Notes under the pieces: model-generated
What the model saw: the letters and a program-made list of their open reading frames with translations, nothing else
The model's database searches: none
Told to the model about the DNA's origin: nothing
Shown here: piece after piece, positions 40,278 through 64,000 of the stretch
Position numbering within the stretch: the stretch's first letter is position 1
Layout of the letters: every line of letters begins with the position of its first letter
Source: Clostridiales bacterium
GTDB lineage: Bacteria > Bacillota > Clostridia > Christensenellales > Borkfalkiaceae
Direction of reading: 5' to 3'
Assembly: GCA_015069285.1 (NCBI GenBank)
Contig: SVIX01000002.1
Span: 18,335-82,334 of the forward strand
Length of the DNA: 64,000 nucleotides
Program-made: the position numbers and the translations under genes

Positions 40278-41456
40278 TTACTTCAATTTAACGAGGGTAT
40301 CCATCACGTAATTTCCAAACTCTTCACAAGTCGCACCCGTGTCACGACCCGTTATCACGAATTTCTTTTCTTCAAACGAACAAATATCGAGCGCGCGTTC
40401 CAATTTATCCGCTCTATCCTGCAAACCGATATGCGAAAGCAACATCACGCACGCGCGGAGCATCGAACAAGGGTCTGCGTATTTGCCTCTGCCTTCCGTA
40501 ATCATACGAGGCGCAGAGCCGTGTATTGCTTCAAACATCGCGTATTTTTTACCGATATTCGCGCAACCTGCCGTACCTACGCCACCTTGGAACTCGGCGG
40601 CTTCGTCTGAAATGATATCGCCGTACAAATTAGGCAAAAGCAAAACCTGAAAATCACGGCGACGCTTTTTATCTACGAGTTTAGCCGTCATAATATCGGC
40701 GTACCATTCGTCCGTAAGAATATCGGGATATAAATCAGCGACTTTATGGCAATCCTCTAAAAAGTTTCCGTCCGTCGTTTTAATAATATTTGCTTTGGTT
40801 ACAAGCGAAACGCGTTTTAATCCGTTTTTATGCGCATAATCGTAAGCAAGCCGTGCAATTCGGTCCGACCCTTGTTTGGTTGTTATCGTAAAATCCACAG
40901 CCAAGTCTTCGGTTACGTTAAATCCCGACGAACCTACGGCGTAGCCACCCTCCGTGTTTTCACGGAATATCGTCCAATTAATTCCTTCCTCGGGCACTTT
41001 TACGGGACGAATATTCGCAAACAAATCCAACGCCTTACGCATTGCCACGTTCGCCGACTCGATATTGGGCATACCGCTACCCTTTTGCGGAGTCGTGGTA
41101 GGTCCTTTTAAAATAATATGACATTCTTTTAATTGCGCCATAACGTCATCGGGAATTGCTTTGCCTTTCGCAATACGGTTCTCTATCGTCAAACCGTCAA
41201 TATCCTTAAAGGTTACCTTTCCCGCTTTCACTAAATCCGCAAGAATAAACTCCAACACGCGTCTTGCTTGTGCGGAAATGATAGGTCCGATACCGTCCCC
41301 ACCGCAAACCCCGATTTTTATACAATCAAGCGATTTATAATCCACAAAATCACCTTGCGCTTTCATATCTTCAACACGCGCAAGCTGTTGTTCTAAAATT
41401 TTCTTAAATTTTTCGCACGCCCTATCTAATTGTGCTTTATATTCTTCCTTTTCCAT
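40278..41456 (-). CDS. Isocitrate/isopropylmalate-family dehydrogenase, probable NAD-isocitrate dehydrogenase
   Basis: GVCGGDGIGPIISAQARRVLEF; FRENTEGGYAVGSSGF; NLYGDIISDEAAEFQGGVGTAGCANIG; IHGSAPRM; downstream of aconitase. Confidence 0.88.
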   Translation of the reverse strand: MEKEEYKAQLDRACEKFKKILEQQLARVEDMKAQGDFVDYKSLDCIKIGVCGGDGIGPIISAQARRVLEFILADLVKAGKVTFKDIDGLTIENRIAKGKAIPDDVMAQLKECHIILKGPTTTPQKGSGMPNIESANVAMRKALDLFANIRPVKVPEEGINWTIFRENTEGGYAVGSSGFNVTEDLAVDFTITTKQGSDRIARLAYDYAHKNGLKRVSLVTKANIIKTTDGNFLEDCHKVADLYPDILTDEWYADIMTAKLVDKKRRRDFQVLLLPNLYGDIISDEAAEFQGGVGTAGCANIGKKYAMFEAIHGSAPRMITEGRGKYADPCSMLRACVMLLSHIGLQDRADKLERALDICSFEEKKFVITGRDTGATCEEFGNYVMDTLVKLK

Positions 41457-41460
41457 TTTT

Positions 41461-43392
41461 TTATCTCTCCTGTTTCGTATAATTTAATCTACCGCCTGCA
41501 AGCAAAATAGCGCGTTGTCTTTCGCTTAATTGCAAACAAAGTTCCGCTGTTGCGCCCGTCGTCTTGTTCACGAGCGTTGCGTGCGATTGCTCGGCTACCG
41601 CATTTTTGAAATTTTCAATGCCTATGCAGTCGCCTTCCGCAAACTTTTCGTAATCCTCGGGATTTTTTAACGTCATTGGTACGATACCGAAATTAATCAA
41701 GTTCGCAACGTGTATACGCGCAAAACTTTTTGCTACGACCGCTTTAATTCCCAAATACAAAGGTACGAGCGCCGCATGCTCCCGAGAAGAACCTTGTCCG
41801 TAATTCATTCCGCCTAAAATCACACCGCCTCCCTTTGCTTTTGCCCGTTCGGGAAAATCTTTATCGCAAACGGTAAAGCAAAATTCCGAGAGTTTCGGCA
41901 CGTTCGAACGGTACGGCAAGACCTTCGTTCCCGCAGGCATAATGTGGTCGGTGGTAATATCGTCGCCCACTTTTAATATCAACTCACAAGACAAATTTTC
42001 CTCGGGCGCTTTTCCTACGGGGATGGGTTTGATATTCGGTCCGCGTTCTACGACGACTTCGTCCGATTTACTTTCTTCAACGGGTAATTCAATTAAATTA
42101 TCGTTAATCTTGAAGACCGTCGGCATTTCTATTTTAGGCGCAACGCCAAGCGTCGTAGGGTCGGTAAATACGCCCGTAATTGCGCTCACCGCTGCCGTTT
42201 CCGGAGAAACGAGATACACTTGCGCGTCCGCCGTTCCGCTACGCGCAAGGAAATTACGGTTAAACGTTCGCAAACTCACCCCTGCCGATTGCGGTGAGAA
42301 CCCCATACCGATACAAGGACCGCAAGCGCACTCCAAAATTCTTGCGCCTGCGTTAATTAAGTCGGCAAGCGCACCACATTCGGCGAGCATTGTATATACC
42401 TGTTTTGACCCGGGCGAAATAGACAAGCTGACGTCTTTATGCACCGTTTTTCCTTTGAGTATTTGCGCAACGGTCAACATATCTTGCATAGATGAATTCG
42501 TACAAGAACCGATACAAATTTGATTGATTTTCATTCCTGAAAGCTCAGAAACTTTTTTCACGTTATCAGGGCTATGCGGACAAGCAGTCAAAGGTTTTAA
42601 CGCACTCAAATCAACGGTATATTCCGCGTCAAAACTTGCGTCCTCATCGGAAGAAAGTTCCACGAAATCTTCTTCTCTGCCTTCTGCTTTTAAAAAGGCT
42701 TTCGTGACCTCGTCGGAAGGGAAGATAGAACTAGTCGCGCCGAGTTCTGCGCCCATATTCGTTATCGTTGCGCGTTGCGGTACGGACAAGGTTTTTACCC
42801 CTTCACCGCCGTACTCAACGATTGCGCCGACGCCACCTTTAACACCTAAAATACGCAACACTTCCAAAATAACGTCTTTTGCTCCTACGTAATCGGAAAG
42901 CTTTCCCAATAAATTTACGCGTATCATTTTGGGCATCGTTATGTAGTAAGTACCACCGCCCATTGCTACGGCAACGTCCAATCCGCCTGCGCCCATACCG
43001 AGCATACCGATTCCCCCTGCCGTAGGCGTATGAGAATCTGAACCGATTAGCGTTTTTCCGGGTTTAGAAAACCTTTCTAAATGTACTTGATGGCAAATAC
43101 CGTTTCCGGGACGGGAAAATCGTACGCCGTGTTTTTTCGTTACCGTTTGAATATAACGGTGGTCGTCTGCGTTTTCAAAGCCTGCCTGTAAAGTGTTGTG
43201 GTCGATATACGCAACGGAAAGTTCCGTTTTAACGCGTTTAATCCCCATTGCCTCAAACTGCAAATACGCCATCGTGCCCGTTGCGTCCTGCGTAAGCGTT
43301 TGGTCTATTTTTAACCCTATTTCCTTACCAACTACCATTTCTCCGCTGATAAGATGGTTCTTAATAATTTTTTGCGCTATCGTATAGCCCAT
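41461..43392 (-). CDS. Aconitate hydratase (643-aa aconitase form)
   Basis: LIGSDSHTPTAGGIGMLGMGAGGLDVAVAMGG; GSCTNSS; CACGPCIGMGFSPQSAG; GGMNYGQGSSREHAAL. Confidence 0.93.
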   Translation of the reverse strand: MGYTIAQKIIKNHLISGEMVVGKEIGLKIDQTLTQDATGTMAYLQFEAMGIKRVKTELSVAYIDHNTLQAGFENADDHRYIQTVTKKHGVRFSRPGNGICHQVHLERFSKPGKTLIGSDSHTPTAGGIGMLGMGAGGLDVAVAMGGGTYYITMPKMIRVNLLGKLSDYVGAKDVILEVLRILGVKGGVGAIVEYGGEGVKTLSVPQRATITNMGAELGATSSIFPSDEVTKAFLKAEGREEDFVELSSDEDASFDAEYTVDLSALKPLTACPHSPDNVKKVSELSGMKINQICIGSCTNSSMQDMLTVAQILKGKTVHKDVSLSISPGSKQVYTMLAECGALADLINAGARILECACGPCIGMGFSPQSAGVSLRTFNRNFLARSGTADAQVYLVSPETAAVSAITGVFTDPTTLGVAPKIEMPTVFKINDNLIELPVEESKSDEVVVERGPNIKPIPVGKAPEENLSCELILKVGDDITTDHIMPAGTKVLPYRSNVPKLSEFCFTVCDKDFPERAKAKGGGVILGGMNYGQGSSREHAALVPLYLGIKAVVAKSFARIHVANLINFGIVPMTLKNPEDYEKFAEGDCIGIENFKNAVAEQSHATLVNKTTGATAELCLQLSERQRAILLAGGRLNYTKQER

Positions 43393-43414
43393 ATCCGTTT
43401 ATCCTCTCTTTAAT

Positions 43415-44806
43415 TTATAAATCCGTCCAATTCATTGAGCTACGCCCGTCTTTACAAAGCGAACGCACCAATAATTCCAATTCGTCCTCACCCATAACCG
43501 TCGTTCTTCCGTCGGCGTAAAGCGCGTCGATTTGCGTTTTCATTTCTTGTACCATCCAATCCTGCTTTGTTACTTGTTTTTCGGCAGGCAATTTGTAGTG
43601 TTTATTAATCCAATACGCAATTCCTGCCAAGCCCGAAGTATTGGAAATGGACACCTCGGCAGGACGCTTTAAAATCTTTTCCGTATCGAAAATATTATAA
43701 ATTTCCGCGTCTTTCATCATTCCGTCCGCGTGCACGCCTGCACGCGTAAGATTGAACGCGCTTCCTACGAATGGCGTCATCGGAGGTATTTCATATTTTA
43801 ATTCCGTTTTAAAATACTCGGCAATATCCGTAATCGCGGTCGTATCCATTCCGTCCAGCGTTCCGCGCATAGAAGCGTATTGCATTACCATCGCTTCCGT
43901 CGGTACGTTCCCCGTACGCTCGCCAATCCCTAACAACGAACAGTTGACGGCGCTTGCGCCGTATAACCAAGCGCTTACCGCATTCGGTACGCCCATATAA
44001 AAATCGTTATGACCGTGCCATTCCAACATTTCAGAAGTTACGTCCGAATAGTGATGCAACCCGTAAACGATACCCGGAACGCTACGAGGCAAAGCCGTAC
44101 CCGTAAACGGTAAGCCGTAACCCATCGTATCGCACATACGAATTTTAACGGGAATTTTTGCCTCACGGGAAAGTTCAATTAACGCATTTACGAACGGAAC
44201 GACAAAGCCGTAAAAATCCGCGCGCGTTAAATCCTCCAAATGACAGCGGGGAGAAATACCCGCCTCAAAAGCTTGTTTTACGACGGATAAATAATGTTCG
44301 TACGCTTGCTTTCTCGTCATATTCAGTTTTTTAAAAATGTGGTAGTCGGAACAACTCACGAGTATACCCGTTTCTTTAATCCCGATATCGTGCACCAATG
44401 CAAAGTCTTCCTTTTTAGCGCGAATCCAAGTCGTGACTTCGGGGAACTTATATCCAAGCTCCATACATTTTTCAAGCGCTTCTCTATCTTTTTTGGTGTA
44501 TACGAAAAATTCGCTTTGACGGATAATCCCCTTCGGTCCACCAAGTCTTGCCAACATTTTATAAATATCTACGATTTGTTTTGCCGTATACGGCGCGCGT
44601 GATTGTTGACCGTCGCGAAAGGTCGTATCCGTTATCCAAATTTCTTTTGGCATATTCATCGGCACACGACGATGGTTAAACGGGGTTTTGGGAACTTCGT
44701 CGTACGGATAAATATCTCTGAATAATTGCGCCTGCGGAACGTCTTGCAAGGCGTATTCGTACGGGTCTTGTTCCAATAAATTACTCGAAGGATTTAATTC
44801 AATCAT
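43415..44806 (-). CDS. Probable Re-citrate synthase (isopropylmalate/homocitrate synthase superfamily)
   Basis: IWITDTTFRDGQQSRAPYT; MCDTMGYGLP; EWHGHNDFYMGVPNAVSAWLYGA; directly upstream of aconitase and isocitrate dehydrogenase; no Si-type citrate synthase in the window. Confidence 0.82.
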   Translation of the reverse strand: MIELNPSSNLLEQDPYEYALQDVPQAQLFRDIYPYDEVPKTPFNHRRVPMNMPKEIWITDTTFRDGQQSRAPYTAKQIVDIYKMLARLGGPKGIIRQSEFFVYTKKDREALEKCMELGYKFPEVTTWIRAKKEDFALVHDIGIKETGILVSCSDYHIFKKLNMTRKQAYEHYLSVVKQAFEAGISPRCHLEDLTRADFYGFVVPFVNALIELSREAKIPVKIRMCDTMGYGLPFTGTALPRSVPGIVYGLHHYSDVTSEMLEWHGHNDFYMGVPNAVSAWLYGASAVNCSLLGIGERTGNVPTEAMVMQYASMRGTLDGMDTTAITDIAEYFKTELKYEIPPMTPFVGSAFNLTRAGVHADGMMKDAEIYNIFDTEKILKRPAEVSISNTSGLAGIAYWINKHYKLPAEKQVTKQDWMVQEMKTQIDALYADGRTTVMGEDELELLVRSLCKDGRSSMNWTDL

Positions 44807-48442: not shown

Positions 48443-48486
48443 TGAAAAAGAAGCTTTGACTTTTTACAGCCAAAGCTCTTTTTTTC
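48443..48486 (-). terminator. Terminator of the lipoprotein gene
   Basis: GAAAAAGAAGCTTTG-actttttacagc-CAAAGCTCTTTTTTTC, functional in either orientation. Confidence 0.75.
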
Positions 48487-48498
48487 GTATTGAAATTA

Positions 48499-50949
48499 TT
48501 ACGCAAGCGGAGAAATCTCGAAGAGCACACTTAAACCGCCTTGGTTGAATCCAATATGGTTCGCCGATTGCAACGCCATCATAAACGCCATACTTGCGTC
48601 TGCGTTCATCGTATCGCGTACCGTCGTACCGTCAAAATAGAATACTTGGTTTCCAATATTAAATACGGGAGCAGTTACCGTCGTGGTATTTGCCGTTGCG
48701 CTCAATACACCGCGCACGGTTACGCCAAGCTGGGTATTCGTCATTCTATCCAATCTCGGTGCATTTTCATCCGTAGCGTCGCCGTAAAGGAACGAACCTT
48801 GCGCCGCAAGCGAACCCAAAGCAGTCGTCGCATTCGTCCCGTCGCGCATTAACAACGCAACGATATTCATCTTACCTTCGCCGATACCCGTCGTATCCGT
48901 CGCTTTTCTGCCTTTATATATCGTTTTTCCCGCCATCATAAACAACGAGTCTAATTGAACGAATTGAGGAATAATCGCCGTTGCGCCTACAGATTTAAAC
49001 CAAAGTTCAGAACCACTCAATGCGCTATACATTACGCTATCAGCAGAAACTTGCATATGCGGAATCGCCAACGATTCGTCAGATTCATCAGGCAAATCGT
49101 GTTGCAAAATTACGAGAGGTCCGCCTGCGCGTTTAAATATAGATTTATTAACCGTTACGTTCGTATTACCCCAAGCGAATATTGCGTTTTGGAAGGAATC
49201 GTAACATTTCGTACGGTTGTACTCTATAGACGCGCCTTTGTTGGCAAAGAAAGGAATAAAGAAGTTATAGTTTCTCACGTTATCCAATTTTGCTTTGGTG
49301 TTATTGATTTTCGTAAGAATAATACCGCCTGCGTACACCAAACATTCTTTATTTTGTACTGCGCCTTCCGTAGATACGTCCACTTTGAGTTGTTTATTTT
49401 GCGCGTTGCCTCTAATCGCAAGGTTATCAAAATAGAAGGTTTCGCCTTCTTCCGAACCGGTTACCGCTTTACCGCAAGTAGAGCACTCGCTCAACGGTTC
49501 TTCCGAACTTTCTACGTGTCCGTCTTCACAAGTCCACACTTGTTCTTGAGAAGTGATATGGAACAATACCGCGTTAGAAAAGTCGTCGCCGTAATACGTT
49601 TCGTAGGTATCTTCGTTATTTACGTATTGATTGCCTTGATTATCTCTATTTGCTTTAAACGCGCAAACGAGAGGAATTTGCGACGCGTCTACTTCAAAGT
49701 AGTTGCCATAGAAACTAAACGTCTTACCCGTACCAATCGCGCGTTGATAAATCAATACGTAATCTTCCGTACCGTTTGGCGTGTCGTCGGGATTGGTCGC
49801 GTAATTATCAAAATGTTGTTTTAAGAAGGTTCTACCCATGCCCCATTCTTCGGGTGTTTTGGATACGCCGTTTTCGTCTTCGTATTTTACGTTATAATCT
49901 TCGGGCAAAGTATAATAGAAGTCTTCGGGGATATCCGTAGCCGTAAGCGCCATCGTATTATGCAAAATTACGCCGTTGGTATCCACGTTTGCAACGCCTG
50001 CTTGTCCTTTGAGTTCAACCCAAGACTCCCGTTTACTGTTATCTAAAACGGCAAGTTCTTTCGTGTTGTAAACGTTGTATCCGTCTACGATTTGCACCGC
50101 CATTACGATTGCGTCCGTAGCAGAATCCACTTCGTATACCGTTGAATCGGGAAGAATGGAAATGTTAAAAATTTGACCTACGGCAGAGGGCGCAAAGAAA
50201 AATTCGTTCTTCTTCGCGTCTTCCGTAACGAGTAACGTTTCCCCGTTGTAATATTCGTAAGTATATTCCGCGCCTTCTTTCACCGATTTGGTAAGCGTTT
50301 GATAAACGTTTCCAACAAGCACTTTTACAGTAGAATTTACCGTAACGTTCGTTAATGCGGTAATTTCGCCCGTATCAAAGTCCAACGCGTCGGCAACGGG
50401 AACGACTTTAAACGCGTTATCGTCGCCAACCATATAATATTCGTCCATTTCATTTTTAAAGAAAACGCTTTCTTCCGTACTTTCCGTTTGAGTCTTCGCG
50501 GCCTCGATTTGCGCGCGGTATGCTACGAGGAACGCAGGCGTATTAAAGGTATCGATGCTATCTAATACGACCTCTTCATCTTTTACGGTAATGGTAAACG
50601 ATTTACTCTTTTCACCGTATTCCGTAGAATATACGACTTTAATCGTTTTATTGCCTGCCGTTTCGGTGATTTTAGAAAGATTTGCCGTAATGTCTTCGTT
50701 ACCGAGATAAATTTTTACCTCAGAAAACGCAACGGCTTTGGTTTCGTCATCACTATAGGTAGCTTTCATGATAAGTCCCGACAAGTCTACGGTATCACCA
50801 ATTTCGTAACTTAAAGCCACGGCGGACGTATCCACGGTAAAATTCGTCAATTCGTAATCGCCCGACAAATTCTTACAACCCGTAGCTACCGTCGCAAAGG
50901 AAGTGCCGAGAAGTAATGAAGCAAAAATAATTTTTGTTTTCTTTTTCAT
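48499..50949 (-). CDS. Large surface lipoprotein with Ig-like N-terminal domain and internal Cys4 zinc-ribbon-like insert
   Basis: Lipobox SFATVATGC; bacterial Ig-like YEIGDTVDLSGLIMKATYSDDETKAV...; insert VWTCEDGHVESSEEPLSECSTCGKAV. Confidence 0.75.
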   Translation of the reverse strand: MKKKTKIIFASLLLGTSFATVATGCKNLSGDYELTNFTVDTSAVALSYEIGDTVDLSGLIMKATYSDDETKAVAFSEVKIYLGNEDITANLSKITETAGNKTIKVVYSTEYGEKSKSFTITVKDEEVVLDSIDTFNTPAFLVAYRAQIEAAKTQTESTEESVFFKNEMDEYYMVGDDNAFKVVPVADALDFDTGEITALTNVTVNSTVKVLVGNVYQTLTKSVKEGAEYTYEYYNGETLLVTEDAKKNEFFFAPSAVGQIFNISILPDSTVYEVDSATDAIVMAVQIVDGYNVYNTKELAVLDNSKRESWVELKGQAGVANVDTNGVILHNTMALTATDIPEDFYYTLPEDYNVKYEDENGVSKTPEEWGMGRTFLKQHFDNYATNPDDTPNGTEDYVLIYQRAIGTGKTFSFYGNYFEVDASQIPLVCAFKANRDNQGNQYVNNEDTYETYYGDDFSNAVLFHITSQEQVWTCEDGHVESSEEPLSECSTCGKAVTGSEEGETFYFDNLAIRGNAQNKQLKVDVSTEGAVQNKECLVYAGGIILTKINNTKAKLDNVRNYNFFIPFFANKGASIEYNRTKCYDSFQNAIFAWGNTNVTVNKSIFKRAGGPLVILQHDLPDESDESLAIPHMQVSADSVMYSALSGSELWFKSVGATAIIPQFVQLDSLFMMAGKTIYKGRKATDTTGIGEGKMNIVALLMRDGTNATTALGSLAAQGSFLYGDATDENAPRLDRMTNTQLGVTVRGVLSATANTTTVTAPVFNIGNQVFYFDGTTVRDTMNADASMAFMMALQSANHIGFNQGGLSVLFEISPLA

Positions 50950-51012: not shown

Positions 51013-51486
51013 TTATTTTCTTGCAACGATACGAACGGTATCGCGCGCGTTGATATTCCCTTTCGATTCTGCAATCGTAACGTCAACCGTCAGCGTTTTT
51101 AAAAATACGATTTCTTCCGTTTCGGGAACGAATACTACGTAATCGTTATTAAAAGTATATTTCAAATTATCATTGGACGCGTCGTCGGGGGTAAGCAGGT
51201 AGACAAGTTTTACGCGATTGGGATTGTTCGCAAGACTATCCGCATCTTTGGTATATCCGCCCTCGTCTGCGCTTGGCTCAAAATAAAACCAATACCATTT
51301 CTCGCCCGTATTTGGATTCGTCCGTTCTTCCACCGTTTTGCCACGGCTGTGTTCTACACCCGTGATTTCTATCGTTTCCACGTACGCCCCGCCTTGGGGA
51401 ACGGTTGCCGGAACGCCAAAAAGCTGTACGGCGACGATGGAGGCAAGGTAGATTATGAAAATTGCAATAATAACCGTTTTCTTCAT
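51013..51486 (-). CDS. 157-aa membrane-anchored extracytoplasmic protein
   Basis: Single N-term hydrophobic segment MKKTVIIAIFIIYLASIVAVQLFG followed by polar domain; 3 nt downstream of the permease. Confidence 0.65.
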   Translation of the reverse strand: MKKTVIIAIFIIYLASIVAVQLFGVPATVPQGGAYVETIEITGVEHSRGKTVEERTNPNTGEKWYWFYFEPSADEGGYTKDADSLANNPNRVKLVYLLTPDDASNDNLKYTFNNDYVVFVPETEEIVFLKTLTVDVTIAESKGNINARDTVRIVARK

Positions 51487-51489
51487 ACC

Positions 51490-53214
51490 TTACTTCTCCT
51501 TATAATACACGCGGATTTTCAAGAAATACACGAAAATTCTAAACGCGGAAAAGATTATCGACACAATAAACGCTTTTATCCAAATTTTCGTCACGCCTTC
51601 GCCCATCAAAAGGAAAACGCAAAGCGCGAAAATAAACGCTAAGAAAAACGCTAAGAGCGTCGATTTATTTTCGTTGGGATTATTCGACTGCTCGGAAAAA
51701 GTCGCGTACTGCTCGTATTGAGGATTCATTAAATCCAACTCACCGCTCCAAAACAGGTGCGCAAGATATACGAAGTACGCCGTACCGCCAAACAACCATA
51801 AGTTCACCGACCCTGCTTGATAATATTGCGCATATACTATCGTCGTTATGATGATACCTATAAGCCCTATCGCCATATTGACGGTCAGTTTAGAAAAAAG
51901 CAAACGAGAACCGTGCGCAGAAGGCTGAACCTTATTCATTCTCGCCGCAAAGCCTTCTTTGGAATACGCGCTCGATAAACGAATATTTGCCGAAAGCATA
52001 AACAGTAATACGATAAGAAAATTGAAAGCAACCGTCATTTGTACGCCCGTCAAATCCTTTTTCATCGCGTTGTATAATCCGTTCAACAAAGCAATAGCCA
52101 ACGGCATTAAAACGACGAGTTGCGTGATAAGCGTCAGCACCGTATTATCACGAAGAGCTACTATCCATTCTTTTTTTATCGCTGAAAGAAAAACGGGAGA
52201 TTTGACGTTTTCCTTTTCTTTGATTTTCATTTTTTTCTTGAACTCAAAAGGCTTAGACGCCATTTTATAGAACAAGGGTTTCGCTAAGAACAAACAAAGC
52301 GCGACGAGTACCGCTATACTCAAAATAAGCCCTCCCGCAATCGGAAGCGTAGCGAAGGTAAAAAGTTTCGGCGCCGTTGCGTAAACGCCGTTTACCGTCA
52401 CGACGCTATAAGGATTTCCGATTAACAGCGTCGTAAGCCAAGCGATAGGCGGGAAAAACTTCGCCACGTTGCCCGTAAGCCGATTAATCGCGTCCGTCGG
52501 GATACCCGTTTTAAGAAAGTTGATTTCCTCCGGCAACGCTTTTAACAATGCGAGCACAAGGATAAACGCTACGACGTAGGTTACCAGCGAAAATAAATAT
52601 TGCGCTAATTTATATTTACGAATAAATTGGTATACGAACAAAGACGGCATTGAAATAAGCGCCGACAAAAGCACGGGCAAAGTCGCCACGAGCACAAAGA
52701 GTACGATTACCCATAAAAAATAATATATCGGATAACCAAGCACCAATCCGTACCCAAAAAACAGCGGAATTAAAAACATAAAGTTCTTTTTTAATTCGTA
52801 AACGTAATAAACCAACAATTTAGACAAAAACACCATCGTCGGTTTTGCGGGAAAGGTTAAAAGCACCAAGTTATCTTTCGATAAATACAGCGATTGCACC
52901 AAGCCAATCGTCGTAAAAACAACGGATAACCCCATCATAACGGCAACTACCGTAGTAAGTACGTTTGCTGGAATTTTCCCGTTTATTGCGTCGAATACCT
53001 TTAAAAACTGCGCAAGGAAGCAAATCAAAAAACAGACCGCCGTAATGACCACAAATTCAAGGACGAAAAAGATTACGCGAAAAAGCGTTTGTTTAAAACT
53101 ACGCAAATACGCTACGTCCATTTTTTCCTTTAATTGCATAATCGTCAACGTTTTTAAATTCGCTAACGCGCGTTTTAAGGAAAATACGTCTTTTTTCTTC
53201 GTTTTTCCCGCCAT
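51490..53214 (-). CDS. ABC-2-type permease-like membrane protein
   Basis: Multiple TM segments; 2 nt downstream of the ABC ATPase fusion gene. Confidence 0.75.
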   Translation of the reverse strand: MAGKTKKKDVFSLKRALANLKTLTIMQLKEKMDVAYLRSFKQTLFRVIFFVLEFVVITAVCFLICFLAQFLKVFDAINGKIPANVLTTVVAVMMGLSVVFTTIGLVQSLYLSKDNLVLLTFPAKPTMVFLSKLLVYYVYELKKNFMFLIPLFFGYGLVLGYPIYYFLWVIVLFVLVATLPVLLSALISMPSLFVYQFIRKYKLAQYLFSLVTYVVAFILVLALLKALPEEINFLKTGIPTDAINRLTGNVAKFFPPIAWLTTLLIGNPYSVVTVNGVYATAPKLFTFATLPIAGGLILSIAVLVALCLFLAKPLFYKMASKPFEFKKKMKIKEKENVKSPVFLSAIKKEWIVALRDNTVLTLITQLVVLMPLAIALLNGLYNAMKKDLTGVQMTVAFNFLIVLLFMLSANIRLSSAYSKEGFAARMNKVQPSAHGSRLLFSKLTVNMAIGLIGIIITTIVYAQYYQAGSVNLWLFGGTAYFVYLAHLFWSGELDLMNPQYEQYATFSEQSNNPNENKSTLLAFFLAFIFALCVFLLMGEGVTKIWIKAFIVSIIFSAFRIFVYFLKIRVYYKEK

Positions 53215-53216
53215 AG

Positions 53217-55490
53217 TTACGCTTCTACCCCCTCGGTTACGTTTTGCGAAAAACTTTTATCTTCTTTGATGGGGTCAGAATCCACGTCGGTATTTTCTAT
53301 CATATCCATATAGAGCTTTTCAAGCTGTATTCCCTTTTCTTCCAATGCTTTTACGCTCGTTTCACAAAGGATATGTCCCTTTTTAATAATGGCGATTCTA
53401 TCGCAAATTCTTTCTACGACGTCAATAATGTGGCTAGAGAAAAATACGATATTTCCCTCTTTTGCGTGCTTTTTCATCGCTTCTTTTACTTGGAAAATAC
53501 TCTCAGGGTCTAAGCCCGTAAGAGGCTCGTCCAAAATCCAAAGCCGAGGATTATGCACAAGCGCGGACATAATCGTAATTTTTTGTTTCATACCGTGCGA
53601 ATAGGTTTTAATAGGGTTATCAAACGAACCTTGCAAACGGAATCTTTCCACGTATTCGTCAATTCTTTTCGTTCGGTCTTCTTGGCTTACGTTGTATAAA
53701 TCGGCAATATAGTTCACGTATTCTCTACCCGTTAAATTTTCATATAACGCGTAATGGTCGGGAACGAACCCCGTTTGCAATTTTGCGCCGACGGGTTGTT
53801 TTTCCACGTCGTATCCGCAAACTTCAATACTACCAGAAGATATACCTTGAATCCCTACGATGCTTTTGATAATCGTACTTTTTCCCGCGCCGTTCGGTCC
53901 AAGGAAACCGAAAATTTGTCCGCCCTCAATTTCAAGATTGGCGTTATGCACTGCGTACACGTCGCTTGACGCGTATTGTTTGGAAAAGTTTCTTAAAATG
54001 AGTTTGTTAATTCCGTCCATATTAAAAGGCTCCGCTATATTTCTTCCTGCCAAACTTACCTCTAAGGCAAGCCTGTCTACTTTGATTTTCTTATTTCTTC
54101 GATATATATCCACGTATAAGTCTTCTACGTTAAACGCCAACTCGTACAAGAACCACATCGCAAAAGAAAGCACTACGTACACAAGGAAATATAGCGACTG
54201 ATATACGGGATATATCGTCATCTCAATTCCTTCTTTCGGTGTAAGCACCCAAGTAAAATCACGCAAATCAAGCGCCCATTTCCCAAGTTTTTCCGCGATA
54301 AAATCACTATTGATAAAGAAGAAATCTACACCCTCGTCGAAATTGGTGAGATAGGCGTTCATAATCAATACGAGCGCGTAATAGAAGAAAAAGCCTATCA
54401 AGGAATAAGTAAACAATTTCATCTTCGGACGCTCGTACATTTTTAACCCGATAATGGCTATCGGCATTAAAAACGCACAATAATGGTTTGCCCAAAACCG
54501 CACGCTTTCCGTTTCAAAGCAATAGGAATCGATGTTGGGCATCGCCATCGCAAAAAACGCGCCGAGCACGTTGATAAATAAAGTAAAGTAGAACACCTTA
54601 TTCAGCTTAAAAATCAAACAAAGCGGAATAATATACATTGCCGTATTGCAAAGATGTAAAGGCCACGTCGTAGGGTCTAAAAAGCTTTCGTAAGTAAGAT
54701 AGTAACTGTACGTCGTCATCGTTGCAACGGCAATATAAAGCAACGCAAAGCGTTTACGCTCGTAGTCGTATTTATGCAAAAGCGCAATCAAAAGGGCAAG
54801 CACTACAAACGCGCCGTATAACATAAGTCGGTGTTGCGCAGAAAAATCTTTAAGGGAAATATTTTTCGGCCCCGTACCAAAAATAACCTGTAATGTGAAC
54901 ACAGGAATCGATACCGCTATCATCCCCAATAAAATGCCTACGCCTTTTATAAAACGCTTCGTGTGAAAACGCGTTTTGTATTCGTTTAACCAAACGGCAA
55001 AACACATCGACAACGCAATACCCGTTTCCAAAGCAAAAAAGACGGCTTGTAGCGTAATTCCTTTATTGAGCGCGTCCGCGCCACCCATTGCTTGAATTTG
55101 CACGTTAATCGTGCATAAATCCACGAGATAAACAGCGGTTGCAAAAAATTTTACGAGCGGAGTAATCATCCCCACTTTCGTCTTAAAAAAAGGATACAAG
55201 ACGAGGAGGGTATACGCAGTCAAAGTGAACCAAACGGAAAAAATGGAAAATAGGGTTGTGATTTGCCCTTTCGTTCCAAACGGCGAACGGATATTTAAAC
55301 CGTACGTATCTTTCAGTACGATTTTACCGCCCATATAACGCAACGCAAAAACGACGGCAAAAAGCAAAGCGACGCCCTTTAAAATCCACGCCTTTTTGCT
55401 CTCTTCCGCCTTAATAAATTTATTTAATAAATAGTATCCGATTGAAAATACTACCGCCGTTATTACGGCAATTAAATAGTATGTAATCAT
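53217..55490 (-). CDS. Fusion: N-terminal YwaF/TMEM164-like membrane domain plus C-terminal ABC transporter ATPase
   Basis: N-term about 450 aa multi-TM with TTWPLHLCNTAMYIIPL motif; C-term Walker A GFLGPNGAGKSTI, signature YSHGMKQKI, Walker B LWILDEPLTGLDP; single uninterrupted ORF. Confidence 0.85.
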   Translation of the reverse strand: MITYYLIAVITAVVFSIGYYLLNKFIKAEESKKAWILKGVALLFAVVFALRYMGGKIVLKDTYGLNIRSPFGTKGQITTLFSIFSVWFTLTAYTLLVLYPFFKTKVGMITPLVKFFATAVYLVDLCTINVQIQAMGGADALNKGITLQAVFFALETGIALSMCFAVWLNEYKTRFHTKRFIKGVGILLGMIAVSIPVFTLQVIFGTGPKNISLKDFSAQHRLMLYGAFVVLALLIALLHKYDYERKRFALLYIAVATMTTYSYYLTYESFLDPTTWPLHLCNTAMYIIPLCLIFKLNKVFYFTLFINVLGAFFAMAMPNIDSYCFETESVRFWANHYCAFLMPIAIIGLKMYERPKMKLFTYSLIGFFFYYALVLIMNAYLTNFDEGVDFFFINSDFIAEKLGKWALDLRDFTWVLTPKEGIEMTIYPVYQSLYFLVYVVLSFAMWFLYELAFNVEDLYVDIYRRNKKIKVDRLALEVSLAGRNIAEPFNMDGINKLILRNFSKQYASSDVYAVHNANLEIEGGQIFGFLGPNGAGKSTIIKSIVGIQGISSGSIEVCGYDVEKQPVGAKLQTGFVPDHYALYENLTGREYVNYIADLYNVSQEDRTKRIDEYVERFRLQGSFDNPIKTYSHGMKQKITIMSALVHNPRLWILDEPLTGLDPESIFQVKEAMKKHAKEGNIVFFSSHIIDVVERICDRIAIIKKGHILCETSVKALEEKGIQLEKLYMDMIENTDVDSDPIKEDKSFSQNVTEGVEA

Positions 55491-55707
55491 AAACTTTCCG
55501 TTTTCCCGTCCGACTTCTTTCGTTAAAATATTCCGCGATAAACTTTATCTAATTTATTCTATCACGAACAGCATTAAATTGTCAAGCGTTTGAAACAATC
55601 TACCTTTTTTCTAATCGTTTGCGCCCGACAATATATAATACGCTCTATATCTTAAACAACGGTTAATTCCGTTTTTCTCACTTTTTATAAAATATTTTTT
55701 TTCTCTC

Positions 55708-55737
55708 TTGACATTCTTGCCGTTTTCGTGTTATAAT
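55708..55737 (+). promoter_or_regulatory. Promoter of adenine deaminase gene
   Basis: TTGACA (55708-55713), 18-nt spacer, TATAAT (55732-55737). Confidence 0.8.
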
Positions 55738-55776: not shown

Positions 55777-57567
55777 ATGTTGAATAAATTCTGCAAAAAA
55801 CCTTTATGGGAATGTTCTCAAACGCTTTCTCTCGTCGCGTCGGGCGCAAAAAAAGCCGATTTGGTAATTTTGGGCGCAAAACTCGTCAACGTATGCACGC
55901 ACGAAATATTGGAAAACACCGACGTTGCCGTAGCGCAAGGTAGAATTGCTTGTGTTGGCAACTGCCAATCTTGTATCGGAGAAAACACCCTCGTAATCCA
56001 CGCAAACGGAAAATACCTCGCCCCTGCCTTTATGGACGGACATATCCACGTGGAATCCTCTATGCTTTCCGTTGGAGAATACGCTAAAGCCGTAATTCCG
56101 TGTGGTACGAGCGCTATTTTTATGGACCCGCACGAAATTTGCAACGTGCTTGGTTTAGACGGCGTCAAATATATGTTGGAGGACGCAAAACACACCTCCC
56201 TCAAAGCAATGCTCACTACCCCGTCCTGCGTTCCCGCCGTTCCCGGTTTTGAAGATACGGGCGCAACCGTCGGTCCGAAAGAAGTAGCGGAAACGATGAC
56301 TTGGGAGGAATGCGTGGGCTTGGGCGAAATGATGAACTTCCCCGGTATTTTAAACGCAGACGAACATACGCACGCCATCGTCGGGGAAACGCTAAAAGCG
56401 GGAAAAATCGTCACGGGGCATTATTCGTTGCCTGAAACGGCGCAGGGCTTAAATGCGTATATCGCCTCGGGCGTAAGGTGCTGTCACGAATCCACGCGCG
56501 CCGAAGACGCGCTCGCAAAAATGCGTTTGGGCATGTATGCAATGCTTAGAGAGGGCTCAGCTTGGCACGATTTAAAAGAAGTCGCAAAAGTGATTACGCA
56601 AAATACGATAGATTCCCGTTTCGCTTGTTTAATTTCAGACGATACGCACCCCGATACTTTACAAAATAAAGGGCATCTCAACTACATCGTCAAGCGCGCG
56701 ATTGAGGAAGGAATCGACCCCGTCACCGCAATTCAAATGGTGACGATAAACGTCGCGCAATGCTTTCAACTCGACCACGATTTAGGTAGCGTAACCCCTT
56801 CTAAATGCGCGGATATGGTGCTCATTGACGACCTTGAAAATTGTAACGTAACGGAAGTATTTATCGACGGTGAATTGGTAGCGCAAAACGGTAAAATGCT
56901 AAAAACCTTCGCCCCTTACGACTACCCCGCAAAAGCTAAAAACTCCGTACACCTCGACTTGCTTACCCCTGAAAACTTCCGTATTCCTGCGACGGGCGCA
57001 AGCGTAAAAATCCGCGTAATGGAAATTATCCCCGCGCGCGTAGGTACTTTTGAACGTTTTGAAACGATGCCCGTCAAAGACGGCGCTTTACACGCCGATG
57101 TGGAACGCGACGTTTTAAAGGTGGCAGTATTTGAACGCCACCGCAATACGGGTACGGTCGGTTACGGGTTCGTCAAAGGCTTCGGAATCAAAAAAGGCGC
57201 GATGGCGCAAACGGTCGCACACGACGCGCATAATTTACTCGTCGTCGGTACGAACGACGAAGATATGGCGCTTGCCTCAAATACGCTCATTGCTTGCGGT
57301 GGCGGTATGGTCGCCGTTGCCGATGGTAAAATTTTAAGTCTTGTACCCCTGCCGATTGCAGGATTGATAAGCGATAGACCGTTAGAAGAAACGAGCGAAA
57401 AAGTTCAAAATTTAGAGAAGGCTTGGAAAGAAATGGGTTGCACGCTCCCTTCGCCGTTTATGACGATGGCGCTCATTCCCTTGGCTTGTTTGCCTGAACT
57501 TCGACTTACAAACCGCGGACTCGTCGATTGCCGAACCTTCCAGTTTACCAATTTAATTGTCGAATAA
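55777..57567 (+). CDS. ade: Adenine deaminase
   Basis: APAFMDGHIHVESSMLSVGEYAKAVIPCGTSAIFMDPHEICNVLG; LISDDTHPDTL; RBS GGAAAGGAGTTATT-ATG; the track's TTG start lies in the -35 box. Confidence 0.9.
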   Translation: MLNKFCKKPLWECSQTLSLVASGAKKADLVILGAKLVNVCTHEILENTDVAVAQGRIACVGNCQSCIGENTLVIHANGKYLAPAFMDGHIHVESSMLSVGEYAKAVIPCGTSAIFMDPHEICNVLGLDGVKYMLEDAKHTSLKAMLTTPSCVPAVPGFEDTGATVGPKEVAETMTWEECVGLGEMMNFPGILNADEHTHAIVGETLKAGKIVTGHYSLPETAQGLNAYIASGVRCCHESTRAEDALAKMRLGMYAMLREGSAWHDLKEVAKVITQNTIDSRFACLISDDTHPDTLQNKGHLNYIVKRAIEEGIDPVTAIQMVTINVAQCFQLDHDLGSVTPSKCADMVLIDDLENCNVTEVFIDGELVAQNGKMLKTFAPYDYPAKAKNSVHLDLLTPENFRIPATGASVKIRVMEIIPARVGTFERFETMPVKDGALHADVERDVLKVAVFERHRNTGTVGYGFVKGFGIKKGAMAQTVAHDAHNLLVVGTNDEDMALASNTLIACGGGMVAVADGKILSLVPLPIAGLISDRPLEETSEKVQNLEKAWKEMGCTLPSPFMTMALIPLACLPELRLTNRGLVDCRTFQFTNLIVE

Positions 57568-61721: not shown

Positions 61722-64000
61722 TTATGCCGAAAGCTTGTCGACAACCGTACCCGTCTTATCGACGAGCTTAAAGGTGCTTCCTTGGGCAATGTCATAATAG
61801 CGATCCTCGTTCTGATACGACTTACCAAGCTTGGAGGCGTCCGTTTTCTCCTCTTCGTAAGACATCGTTTTATAGCCCGTGAAGAACGTACCCGTCGTCG
61901 AGATCGTTACGTTATCCAATGTAAGACAGCCGTTTCTCGTAAGCGAAAGAGGGCTTGCTGTCAATTCTGGCAGCGTCCCGACATCGAAAGACAACATCGT
62001 ATCTTTCATCGTGATTTTTGCACCTGCAAAAGAACTCAACACGGCGTTCCCAGCCCACGTCTCGAACCAGGGCTTTGACCAAGCATCGTAATTCAATTTA
62101 ACTTTCCAGTCGCAATTCTCGATCGTTAAGCCGCTCACAAACGTACCAAACGTAGCGTAATTATAGACTTGTAAGACGCCTGTGAAATTCTTGATCGTAT
62201 GCGTAATATTGACTGCATAACCCGAGTTCGAACCAAACCAACCGTACATTTGATAGGTACCAACCGTCATACCGAAACCTAAACCGTTCAGTACACTACC
62301 CTCCGCAGGAAGTGCCGCAGTGTTGTTCGGAGGCTGCTTCACGTTGGTAGTGAGCACGGCGTATTTTGCCGTTCTCGTCTTAAAGTATTCGAAAAATTCC
62401 GCGTCGCTATCGATTACGAGGTCTGCATAAGCAGCGTACGCGCCGTAAATGCCTTTATCGGTAATAACTACTACGTCTTTTTCACCAGTCATATTGTCAT
62501 ACGTAATAACGCCGTCCGCATACGTAAATTCTTTCTCCTCGAAAAGGAATCTGGTACCCATAGGAACTACTGCTAAAACACTCGTAGGCGTGCCTTCAAA
62601 ATCCGCGTCTAAATCGGTGAGCTTGAGTTTATTAGACTCTACGGAAATATACTCAGTATTCGTATTTTTAACGTTTAAATCGGTTTTGTCAAATACGGTA
62701 ACCTTACCTTCACCAATTTGAGGTATCGTCGAATTCATCGTACCGTTGGTTATAACGGTTACGTTATCAAGAGTATTTTTCTTTTCGTTACCCTTCGTCC
62801 AGTTCAAAGCAACGTTTTTAAAGTCATCAGTCGTATAAAGCGTAATCGTACAATTTTTGAAGGTATTATTATCTCCATCCGAATCGCCTGTCAATAACAT
62901 GCCTTTCTCAAAGAAATTAGCCGCTTCCGCAGTTGCATGTACCGTTACGTTTTCAAAAAGAGAGTTGAATACGTTTCGTCCGAAGATAGAATCATCATAA
63001 AAACGTCCGGTTTCAATCACTACGTTCTTGACGGTATAATTATTTATCGGCTGCGTACCGCACCAACCATTTAAAAATCTCATACCCCACATTTTATGAC
63101 CTAAGCCGTTAAACGTTGCACCTACAAGGGGAGCTATCGTAAGGTGATGGTTTACTTGATAACCTGTATTAAGCCCGTCGATATCCGCTACCAATACCGC
63201 ATATTTTGCAGTAGTGGCATTTTTCGTAATCGTATGCGTACCAATATCCACATTCCAAAAGACACCAGAAGAATTTTCTTGATAGAAATGGAAGTCTGCG
63301 AGAGTCCTAATAACAGCGTCGGATGCGATTACGTCTAAGTAATAGGTATCGTCTGCCGTAAGGAGCGCGTATTTTCTTTCGCCTGCGGTGAGCGTACCGT
63401 TAAAGTCAACTTTTACGGGCGTACCTTCCGTTACGTCGTAAACGTGGTCATAACCCTGAAGACTTTCGCCTTGAACAACTGCGTTGCTTTCTTCGGTTGC
63501 GATAACCGTTTCAACGTCACCGTTCTTAGAAGTTACTTCGTCTACCGCAATTTCTTTGGTAGCGGTCAAAAGACCTGCTTTTGCGGTGAACGTTGCGCCC
63601 TTGTCGTTAAGCGTTTGCGCCGAACCGTTCGTAAAGGTTACATTTGCCTTGTCCGCTTCGTCTACCGTCAATACGATATCCAAACCGATATCCACGGTCG
63701 TCGTTGCAGATACGCTATAGGTGTGCAACAATTTTTGTTGGTCGGGCGTGTTTATAACGAGTTGGGGATTTACTTCCGTATACGCATTCTCAAGCGTTAC
63801 TACTTCGCCACCGTCCTTTTGATAACCGCCTTCTACTTCTACGTAGCCTGCTTTCAAAACGAAACCTTTCTTGATGAAATCGTTCATAATCGTCTTGTTG
63901 GTTTCGTCCGTATCGTAAAGACCGGAGTTAAGCGCGCGGGAAGATACGTTGGTTACGCTACGGGAAATGTCCGAAAGCGAATCAAACGTTGCGTAGGTAC
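61722..64000 (-). CDS. Large secreted protein with duplicated beta-helix module; 5' end beyond the window
   Basis: Frame stays open from M at 63887 to the window edge (upstream translation TYATFDSLSDISRSVTNVSSRALNSGLYDTDETNKTI); repeated TAKYAVL...NGLG units. Confidence 0.75.
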   Translation of the reverse strand, partial: TYATFDSLSDISRSVTNVSSRALNSGLYDTDETNKTIMNDFIKKGFVLKAGYVEVEGGYQKDGGEVVTLENAYTEVNPQLVINTPDQQKLLHTYSVSATTTVDIGLDIVLTVDEADKANVTFTNGSAQTLNDKGATFTAKAGLLTATKEIAVDEVTSKNGDVETVIATEESNAVVQGESLQGYDHVYDVTEGTPVKVDFNGTLTAGERKYALLTADDTYYLDVIASDAVIRTLADFHFYQENSSGVFWNVDIGTHTITKNATTAKYAVLVADIDGLNTGYQVNHHLTIAPLVGATFNGLGHKMWGMRFLNGWCGTQPINNYTVKNVVIETGRFYDDSIFGRNVFNSLFENVTVHATAEAANFFEKGMLLTGDSDGDNNTFKNCTITLYTTDDFKNVALNWTKGNEKKNTLDNVTVITNGTMNSTIPQIGEGKVTVFDKTDLNVKNTNTEYISVESNKLKLTDLDADFEGTPTSVLAVVPMGTRFLFEEKEFTYADGVITYDNMTGEKDVVVITDKGIYGAYAAYADLVIDSDAEFFEYFKTRTAKYAVLTTNVKQPPNNTAALPAEGSVLNGLGFGMTVGTYQMYGWFGSNSGYAVNITHTIKNFTGVLQVYNYATFGTFVSGLTIENCDWKVKLNYDAWSKPWFETWAGNAVLSSFAGAKITMKDTMLSFDVGTLPELTASPLSLTRNGCLTLDNVTISTTGTFFTGYKTMSYEEEKTDASKLGKSYQNEDRYYDIAQGSTFKLVDKTGTVVDKLSA

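Follow-up and report, generated by a model that had tools for sequence, protein, structure and literature searches.

The window, the whole 64,000-nucleotide stretch of clostridial DNA that was analysed, comes from a host genome assembled to 1.41 Mb in 77 contigs (76% complete). It contains on its minus strand a four-gene operon in the order fusion protein, PF16949-like permease, membrane-anchored Ig-fold protein and surface lipoprotein, with intergenic gaps of 2, 3 and 63 nt. In the direction of reading, its features are:

55556–55585, minus strand: promoter-like TTGACA-18-TAGAAT with TG before the second hexamer (11/12), a consensus match only.
53217–55490, minus strand: the fusion protein, 757 aa, in one open frame.
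54828–54833, minus strand: His220-Arg221 of the fusion, invariant in 58/58 aligned fused proteins.
54648–54656, minus strand: HLC motif, His279-Leu280-Cys281, read from the sequence; H279 and C281 are present in 58/58 fused proteins.
54483–54485, minus strand: His336, invariant in the fused, split and standalone relatives examined.
51490–53214, minus strand: PF16949 (ABC_tran_2)-like permease, 574 aa long with about 12 hydrophobic segments, starting directly past the fusion stop.
51013–51486, minus strand: 157-aa protein that has a single N-terminal TM helix and, outside the membrane, a Big_2-like domain.
48499–50949, minus strand: 816-aa lipoprotein with lipobox ATGC (residues 22–25, Cys25), a Big_3 Ig domain and a beta-rich C-terminal half.
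48451–48478, minus strand: terminator-like hairpin of 11 pairs just 3′ of the lipoprotein gene, a consensus match only.

The permease scores 23.4 bits against PF16949, for which the gathering score is 25.7; 19 of 24 members of its family match PF16949 at E 0.01 or better, and the order has many permeases of this kind. The lipoprotein has a signal peptide with the lipobox cysteine present. Its model shows, at residues ∼544–640, short strands at intervals of about 23 residues, which hint at a small parallel beta-helix; a Foldseek search for such a fold gave only Ig and S-layer type domains. Three other features of the window were recorded in passing. A perfect (12/12) promoter-like TTGACA-18-TATAAT lies on the plus strand at 55708–55737, ahead of a divergent adenine deaminase gene; the listed TTG start of this gene at 55708 falls inside the promoter-like site, so that the ATG at 55777 is the likelier start. 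A minus-strand cluster at 40278–44806 encodes isopropylmalate/isocitrate-type dehydrogenase, aconitase-family and HMGL-like (homocitrate or isopropylmalate synthase type) proteins. Finally, a 721-aa protein encoded at 61722–63887 on the minus strand has no Pfam match at E 0.001.

An earlier note on this DNA had described the 757-aa ORF as uninterrupted, giving no strand; we confirm the frame and place it on the minus strand. The motifs quoted for it are present, namely WPLHLCNTAMYIIPL, Walker A GPNGAGKST, the ABC signature YSHGMKQK and Walker B WILDEP. Together with the switch histidine H687 the last three complete the set expected of an ABC ATPase, and the motif columns are invariant in the alignment. 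Taking sequence, profile matches and structural model together, the protein consists of an N-terminal 6-TM bundle (residues 1 to ∼205), a TMEM164-family 6-TM domain (216–431), a long linking helix (428–479) and the ABC ATPase (∼496–740). Residues 216–431 match Pfam PF14808 (TMEM164) at E 1.3e-19, with 71 bits against a gathering score of 25, and residues 515–657 match PF00005 (ABC_tran) at E 5.5e-25 in the same frame. The NCBIfam model TIGR02206 (‘TMEM164-related integral membrane acyltransferase’) gives 70.4 and 70.7 bits, just under its cut-off of 75, and the ATPase matches the DrrA and GldA models with scores below their cut-offs.

The assignment to TMEM164/YwaF made in the earlier note is therefore supported by the PF14808 score, and likewise by residue conservation and gene order; the match also disposes of the outcome that the note had said would count against it, a membrane region matching no such profile. 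The assignment stands for residues 216–431, but does not extend over the whole N-terminal region: residues 1–215 gave no match to the TMEM164 family in the profile search and form a separate predicted 6-TM bundle in the AlphaFold model. An internal duplication of the TMEM164 fold (residues 1–210 against 214–485) was considered and rejected, the hhalign probability being 0.7%. Neither the fusion TM region nor the permease found a match among solved structures, by single sequence or by profile, and a fold search with the fusion TM region returned nothing below E 0.001 (best E 0.15).

The AlphaFold model of residues 1–493 (pLDDT 89, pTM 0.87) comprises six helices, six more that make up the TMEM164 domain, and then a long helix, about 50 residues, that leads towards the ABC domain. 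Positively charged loops lie at about residues 24–33, 170–180, 239–246 and 349–358, and fit a predicted N-out, C-in topology with 13 TM segments. Prediction and the positive-inside rule would put H220, H279 and C281 at the outer ends of helices, opposite the ATPase. With the putative active site on the outside, the ATPase is unlikely to drive acyl-transfer chemistry directly.

H220, H279, C281 and H336 are identical in all 58 aligned fused proteins. Beyond the fused set, C281 and H336 are kept in every version examined, with the single exception of one standalone protein (L102) that has Ser in place of Cys. The HLC signature singled out in the earlier note thus survives in part: its cysteine is constant, but its histidine is invariant only within the fused subfamily, and proteins of the split type and most standalone relatives of ∼490 aa have Gln at the H279 position. 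From this near-invariance in the alignments, C281 and H336 are the candidate catalytic residues.

We then considered how widely the fusion occurs. Counting open frames of at least 670 aa in the family and at least 660 aa in the order, we found the fused frame in 27 of the 151 genomes sampled from the family and in 37 of 297 from the order. Counted by open-frame length, 62 distinct sampled genomes from ten families of this one order carry the fusion, as do 30 loci of another collection that partially overlaps these genomes. Sampling beyond the order, with 398 genomes of the phylum and 288 of the class, gave no fused frame; in these samples TMEM164-type proteins are standalone only, and the family members seen there are single-domain proteins of about 237–269 aa. 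The named relatives are uncultured Clostridia, many of them from ruminant, rabbit and other gut samples. One locus (L119, G041:C7) holds a tandem pair of complete, diverged fused four-gene operons.

Gene order around the fusion is conserved. A permease of 534–590 aa directly follows it in every fused locus whose contig extends far enough, and in most of these loci the permease is followed by a protein of ∼130–180 aa that combines a single N-terminal TM helix with a Big_2-like domain, and then by a large extracytoplasmic protein. At three loci (L123, L145 and L151) the TMEM164-type protein (472–483 aa) and the ATPase (242–244 aa) are encoded by separate adjacent genes of the same operon. One of the three genomes belongs to the window’s own genus; in L123 a Shine–Dalgarno-like AAGGAG precedes the separate ATPase gene; and the genome that carries L151 (G087) also has a fused operon (L118). 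Because these separate ORFs lie inside the same operon, they support a TMEM164–ATPase link rather than an assembly error. The earlier note had allowed for an assembly fusion of separate ORFs here; truly separate versions do occur, as just described, but the same fused frame recurs in dozens of independently assembled genomes, related ones included, and we regard an artefact of assembly or sequencing as practically inconceivable. Its further suggestion, that an enzyme domain is tethered to a transporter motor, gains support from the constant neighbouring permease and from the split versions.

A second arrangement was found in four genomes, where a small TMEM164-type gene encoding 285–313 aa closes a related operon with a diverged permease (L132:4686–5576, L133:7646–8503, L139:7055–7924 and L152:7828–8769). 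These small proteins have the motif NLC and keep the cysteine and the later histidine, and the large partner in their permease/Ig-protein operons is membrane-anchored, with 1367–1713 aa. The permease tree unites fused and split systems in a single clade (98/94) and places the TMEM164-free and small-TMEM164 systems in another, apart from them. The deep forks of the ATPase tree are poorly resolved, with long branches, and the main fused group is kept together (98/93). TMEM164-type proteins thus appear to have been coupled to this type of transporter at least twice, which we take to be the strongest evidence of a functional link.

Standalone proteins of ∼490 aa, with QLCN in place of HLCN, are followed at nine loci of the family and order (L120, L125, L126, L128, L146, L147, L148, L149 and L150) by an Acyl_transf_3 (PF01757) gene; two other standalones, L124 and L127, have unrelated neighbours at the tested position. 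Acyl_transf_3 proteins transfer acyl groups onto extracytoplasmic acceptors, so this sister group also adjoins a membrane protein that supplies acyl groups, which we count as supporting evidence. Numbers of family members per genome vary: one 1.4-Mb genome (G000) has seven TMEM164-family genes above the Pfam cut-off, two adjacent pairs included (contigs C53, C61, C36 with two, C68, and C76 with two), and in several other genomes of the order the fusion is the sole TMEM164-family gene.

The lipoprotein tends to accompany the large TMEM164 module. Judged by one lipobox rule, 36 of the 39 fused systems in which the large downstream protein is seen encode it as a lipoprotein, and so do all three split systems. 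The first figure includes L046 (fused) and L070 (a fused-type operon cut by a contig end), both with a lipobox, and is 34 of 37 in the automated table, which lacks these two because of ORF overlap and a contig edge. In TMEM164-free systems the count is 0 of 18, the large partner being membrane-anchored instead, and small-TMEM164 systems have an operon lipoprotein in 0 of 4. The association gives a Fisher p of 3e-14, a statistic that ignores ancestry; because fused and split systems form one permease clade, it may reflect only one or two events. In three fused systems (L039, L066 and L138) the large downstream protein is membrane-anchored and lacks a lipobox, and the core Cys and His are kept; the operon lipoprotein cannot therefore be the obligatory acceptor there. 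Where a lipoprotein is encoded, a surface protein partner is at least as likely as bulk lipid export.

How might these parts work together? LhaT (YpjA, DUF1405) of Bacillus subtilis N-acetylates lipoproteins on the outer face of the membrane, and has been placed with TMEM164 in the ATGY superfamily (PMC12345273). By analogy with LhaT, we propose an exporter that carries an outer-face acyltransferase and most likely works with the operon lipoprotein. The fusion would be the ATPase subunit of an ABC exporter with an N-terminal extracytoplasmic acyltransferase of the TMEM164 superfamily, paired with the permease and acylating a surface acceptor, a proposal to which we give about an even chance of being correct. 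Two copies of the fusion would dimerize through their ABC domains and pair with the PF16949-type permease, so that two acyltransferase domains sit beside the translocation path. The exporter would deliver its substrate, a lipid or a lipid-linked compound, to the outer leaflet. In that leaflet Cys281, aided by His220, His279 and His336, would remove an acyl chain from a lipid and transfer it to an acceptor. The operon lipoprotein would most likely be this acceptor, or else the partner that presents the acyl chain, and the 157-aa anchored Ig-fold protein would serve as a scaffold. Membership of the superfamily suggests the acyltransferase activity, and association across genomes makes the lipoprotein the best-placed partner and most likely the relevant one; complex formation, direction of transport, acceptor and donor are those that we presume from the arrangement as a whole. 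The lipid-handling role proposed in the earlier note is likewise putative.

Other schemes have to be weighed against this one. The TMEM164 domain might instead remodel bulk outer-leaflet phospholipid by transacylation or deacylation, with the ABC–permease pair as a flippase that supplies or removes substrate, and the lipoprotein and anchored Ig protein only holding the complex at the cell wall. Human TMEM164, which with LhaT makes up the two superfamily members of known activity, shifts acyl chains between phospholipids (PMC10474074, PMC12345273), and three fused systems manage without an operon lipoprotein. Such remodelling, however, leaves unexplained the tie between the lipoprotein and the large TMEM164 module (39 of 42 systems with it, as against 0 of 18 without it), and we consider it a serious but somewhat unlikely alternative. 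Alternatively, the TMEM164-like domain could be catalytically idle, an extra membrane anchor or a substrate gate in an exporter whose cargo is a peptide, a polymer or something else. Structural reuse of domains is frequent, and in the TMEM164-free relatives ATPase and permease make up a system by themselves. We nevertheless find idleness hard to reconcile with C281 and H336, which stay unchanged even where identity falls below 30% and most of the remaining residues differ, and think it quite unlikely.

The remaining alternative is that the membrane part of the fusion is the transporter’s own transmembrane domain and that the neighbouring permease belongs to a different transporter. A TM region joined to an ABC domain is a usual exporter layout, and 13 TM segments are predicted; yet in split and TMEM164-free operons the ATPase directly precedes the same kind of permease, and residues 216–431 belong to an enzyme family, which together make this highly improbable. 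The preferred reading, an exporter with a fused outer-face acyltransferase, can itself be sharpened: the ABC–permease pair would flip an acyl-donor lipid outwards and hand it directly to the fused enzyme, which would N-acylate the operon lipoprotein. In this specific form we hold the idea to be unlikely. If true, donor flipping and acyl transfer would be coupled in one complex, and there would be a route of lipoprotein modification independent of Lnt, Lit, LnsAB and LhaT. The route by which activated acyl groups reach outer-face enzymes is open even for LhaT, the passage of whose donor lipid across the membrane is described as unclear (PMC12345273).

The fusion ties a relative of LhaT to a transport ATPase within one polypeptide, and this pairing is seen again as adjacent genes and in a second, small-gene version. 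With such systems one could test directly whether acylation of lipids or lipoproteins is coupled to ABC transport, and bacterial TMEM164-family proteins, of which there are several per genome here, gain a functional context.

Among known systems, LhaT is the functional analogue of our best explanation, sharing with the fusion its superfamily, six TM segments and, as we propose, an action on lipoproteins at the outer face. Its donor lipid is made by PcrB, and it has no reported ABC partner (PMC12345273). The fusion has no match to DUF1405 (PF07187) up to E 0.1. In a sample of 12 related genomes, 11 of them at least 94% complete, neither DUF1405 (0/12) nor PcrB (0/12) was found, and the B. subtilis control for PcrB was detected; the pathway here is therefore not the same as that of LhaT, and we rejected the LhaT/PcrB pathway as such.

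ABC exporters with PF16949 permeases and DrrA/GldA-like ATPases provide the closest counterpart for the other half of the system, as the ATPase resembles DrrA and GldA, if below the cut-offs of their models, and the permease is PF16949-like. Unlike the fusion operon, none of the 22 TMEM164-free loci of this kind that we examined has an acyltransferase domain or a downstream lipoprotein. NosDFY, a transporter for copper-site maturation, likewise has a single operon for ATPase, permease and an extracytoplasmic protein rich in beta structure; neither sequence nor fold matches connected it with the window operon proteins, and we treat the likeness as a lead only. Within the literature covered, the family names YwaF, TIGR02206, PF14808 and PF16949 led to neither the fusion nor the four-gene system. 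Like the TMEM164/YwaF family (PF14808, TIGR02206), the fusion keeps the conserved cysteine and the later histidine, but it differs from the single-domain members in its additional N-terminal 6-TM bundle and its C-terminal ABC ATPase. Judged by sequence, each part comes from a known family, and the fusion and the four-gene system appear to be a new combination of them.
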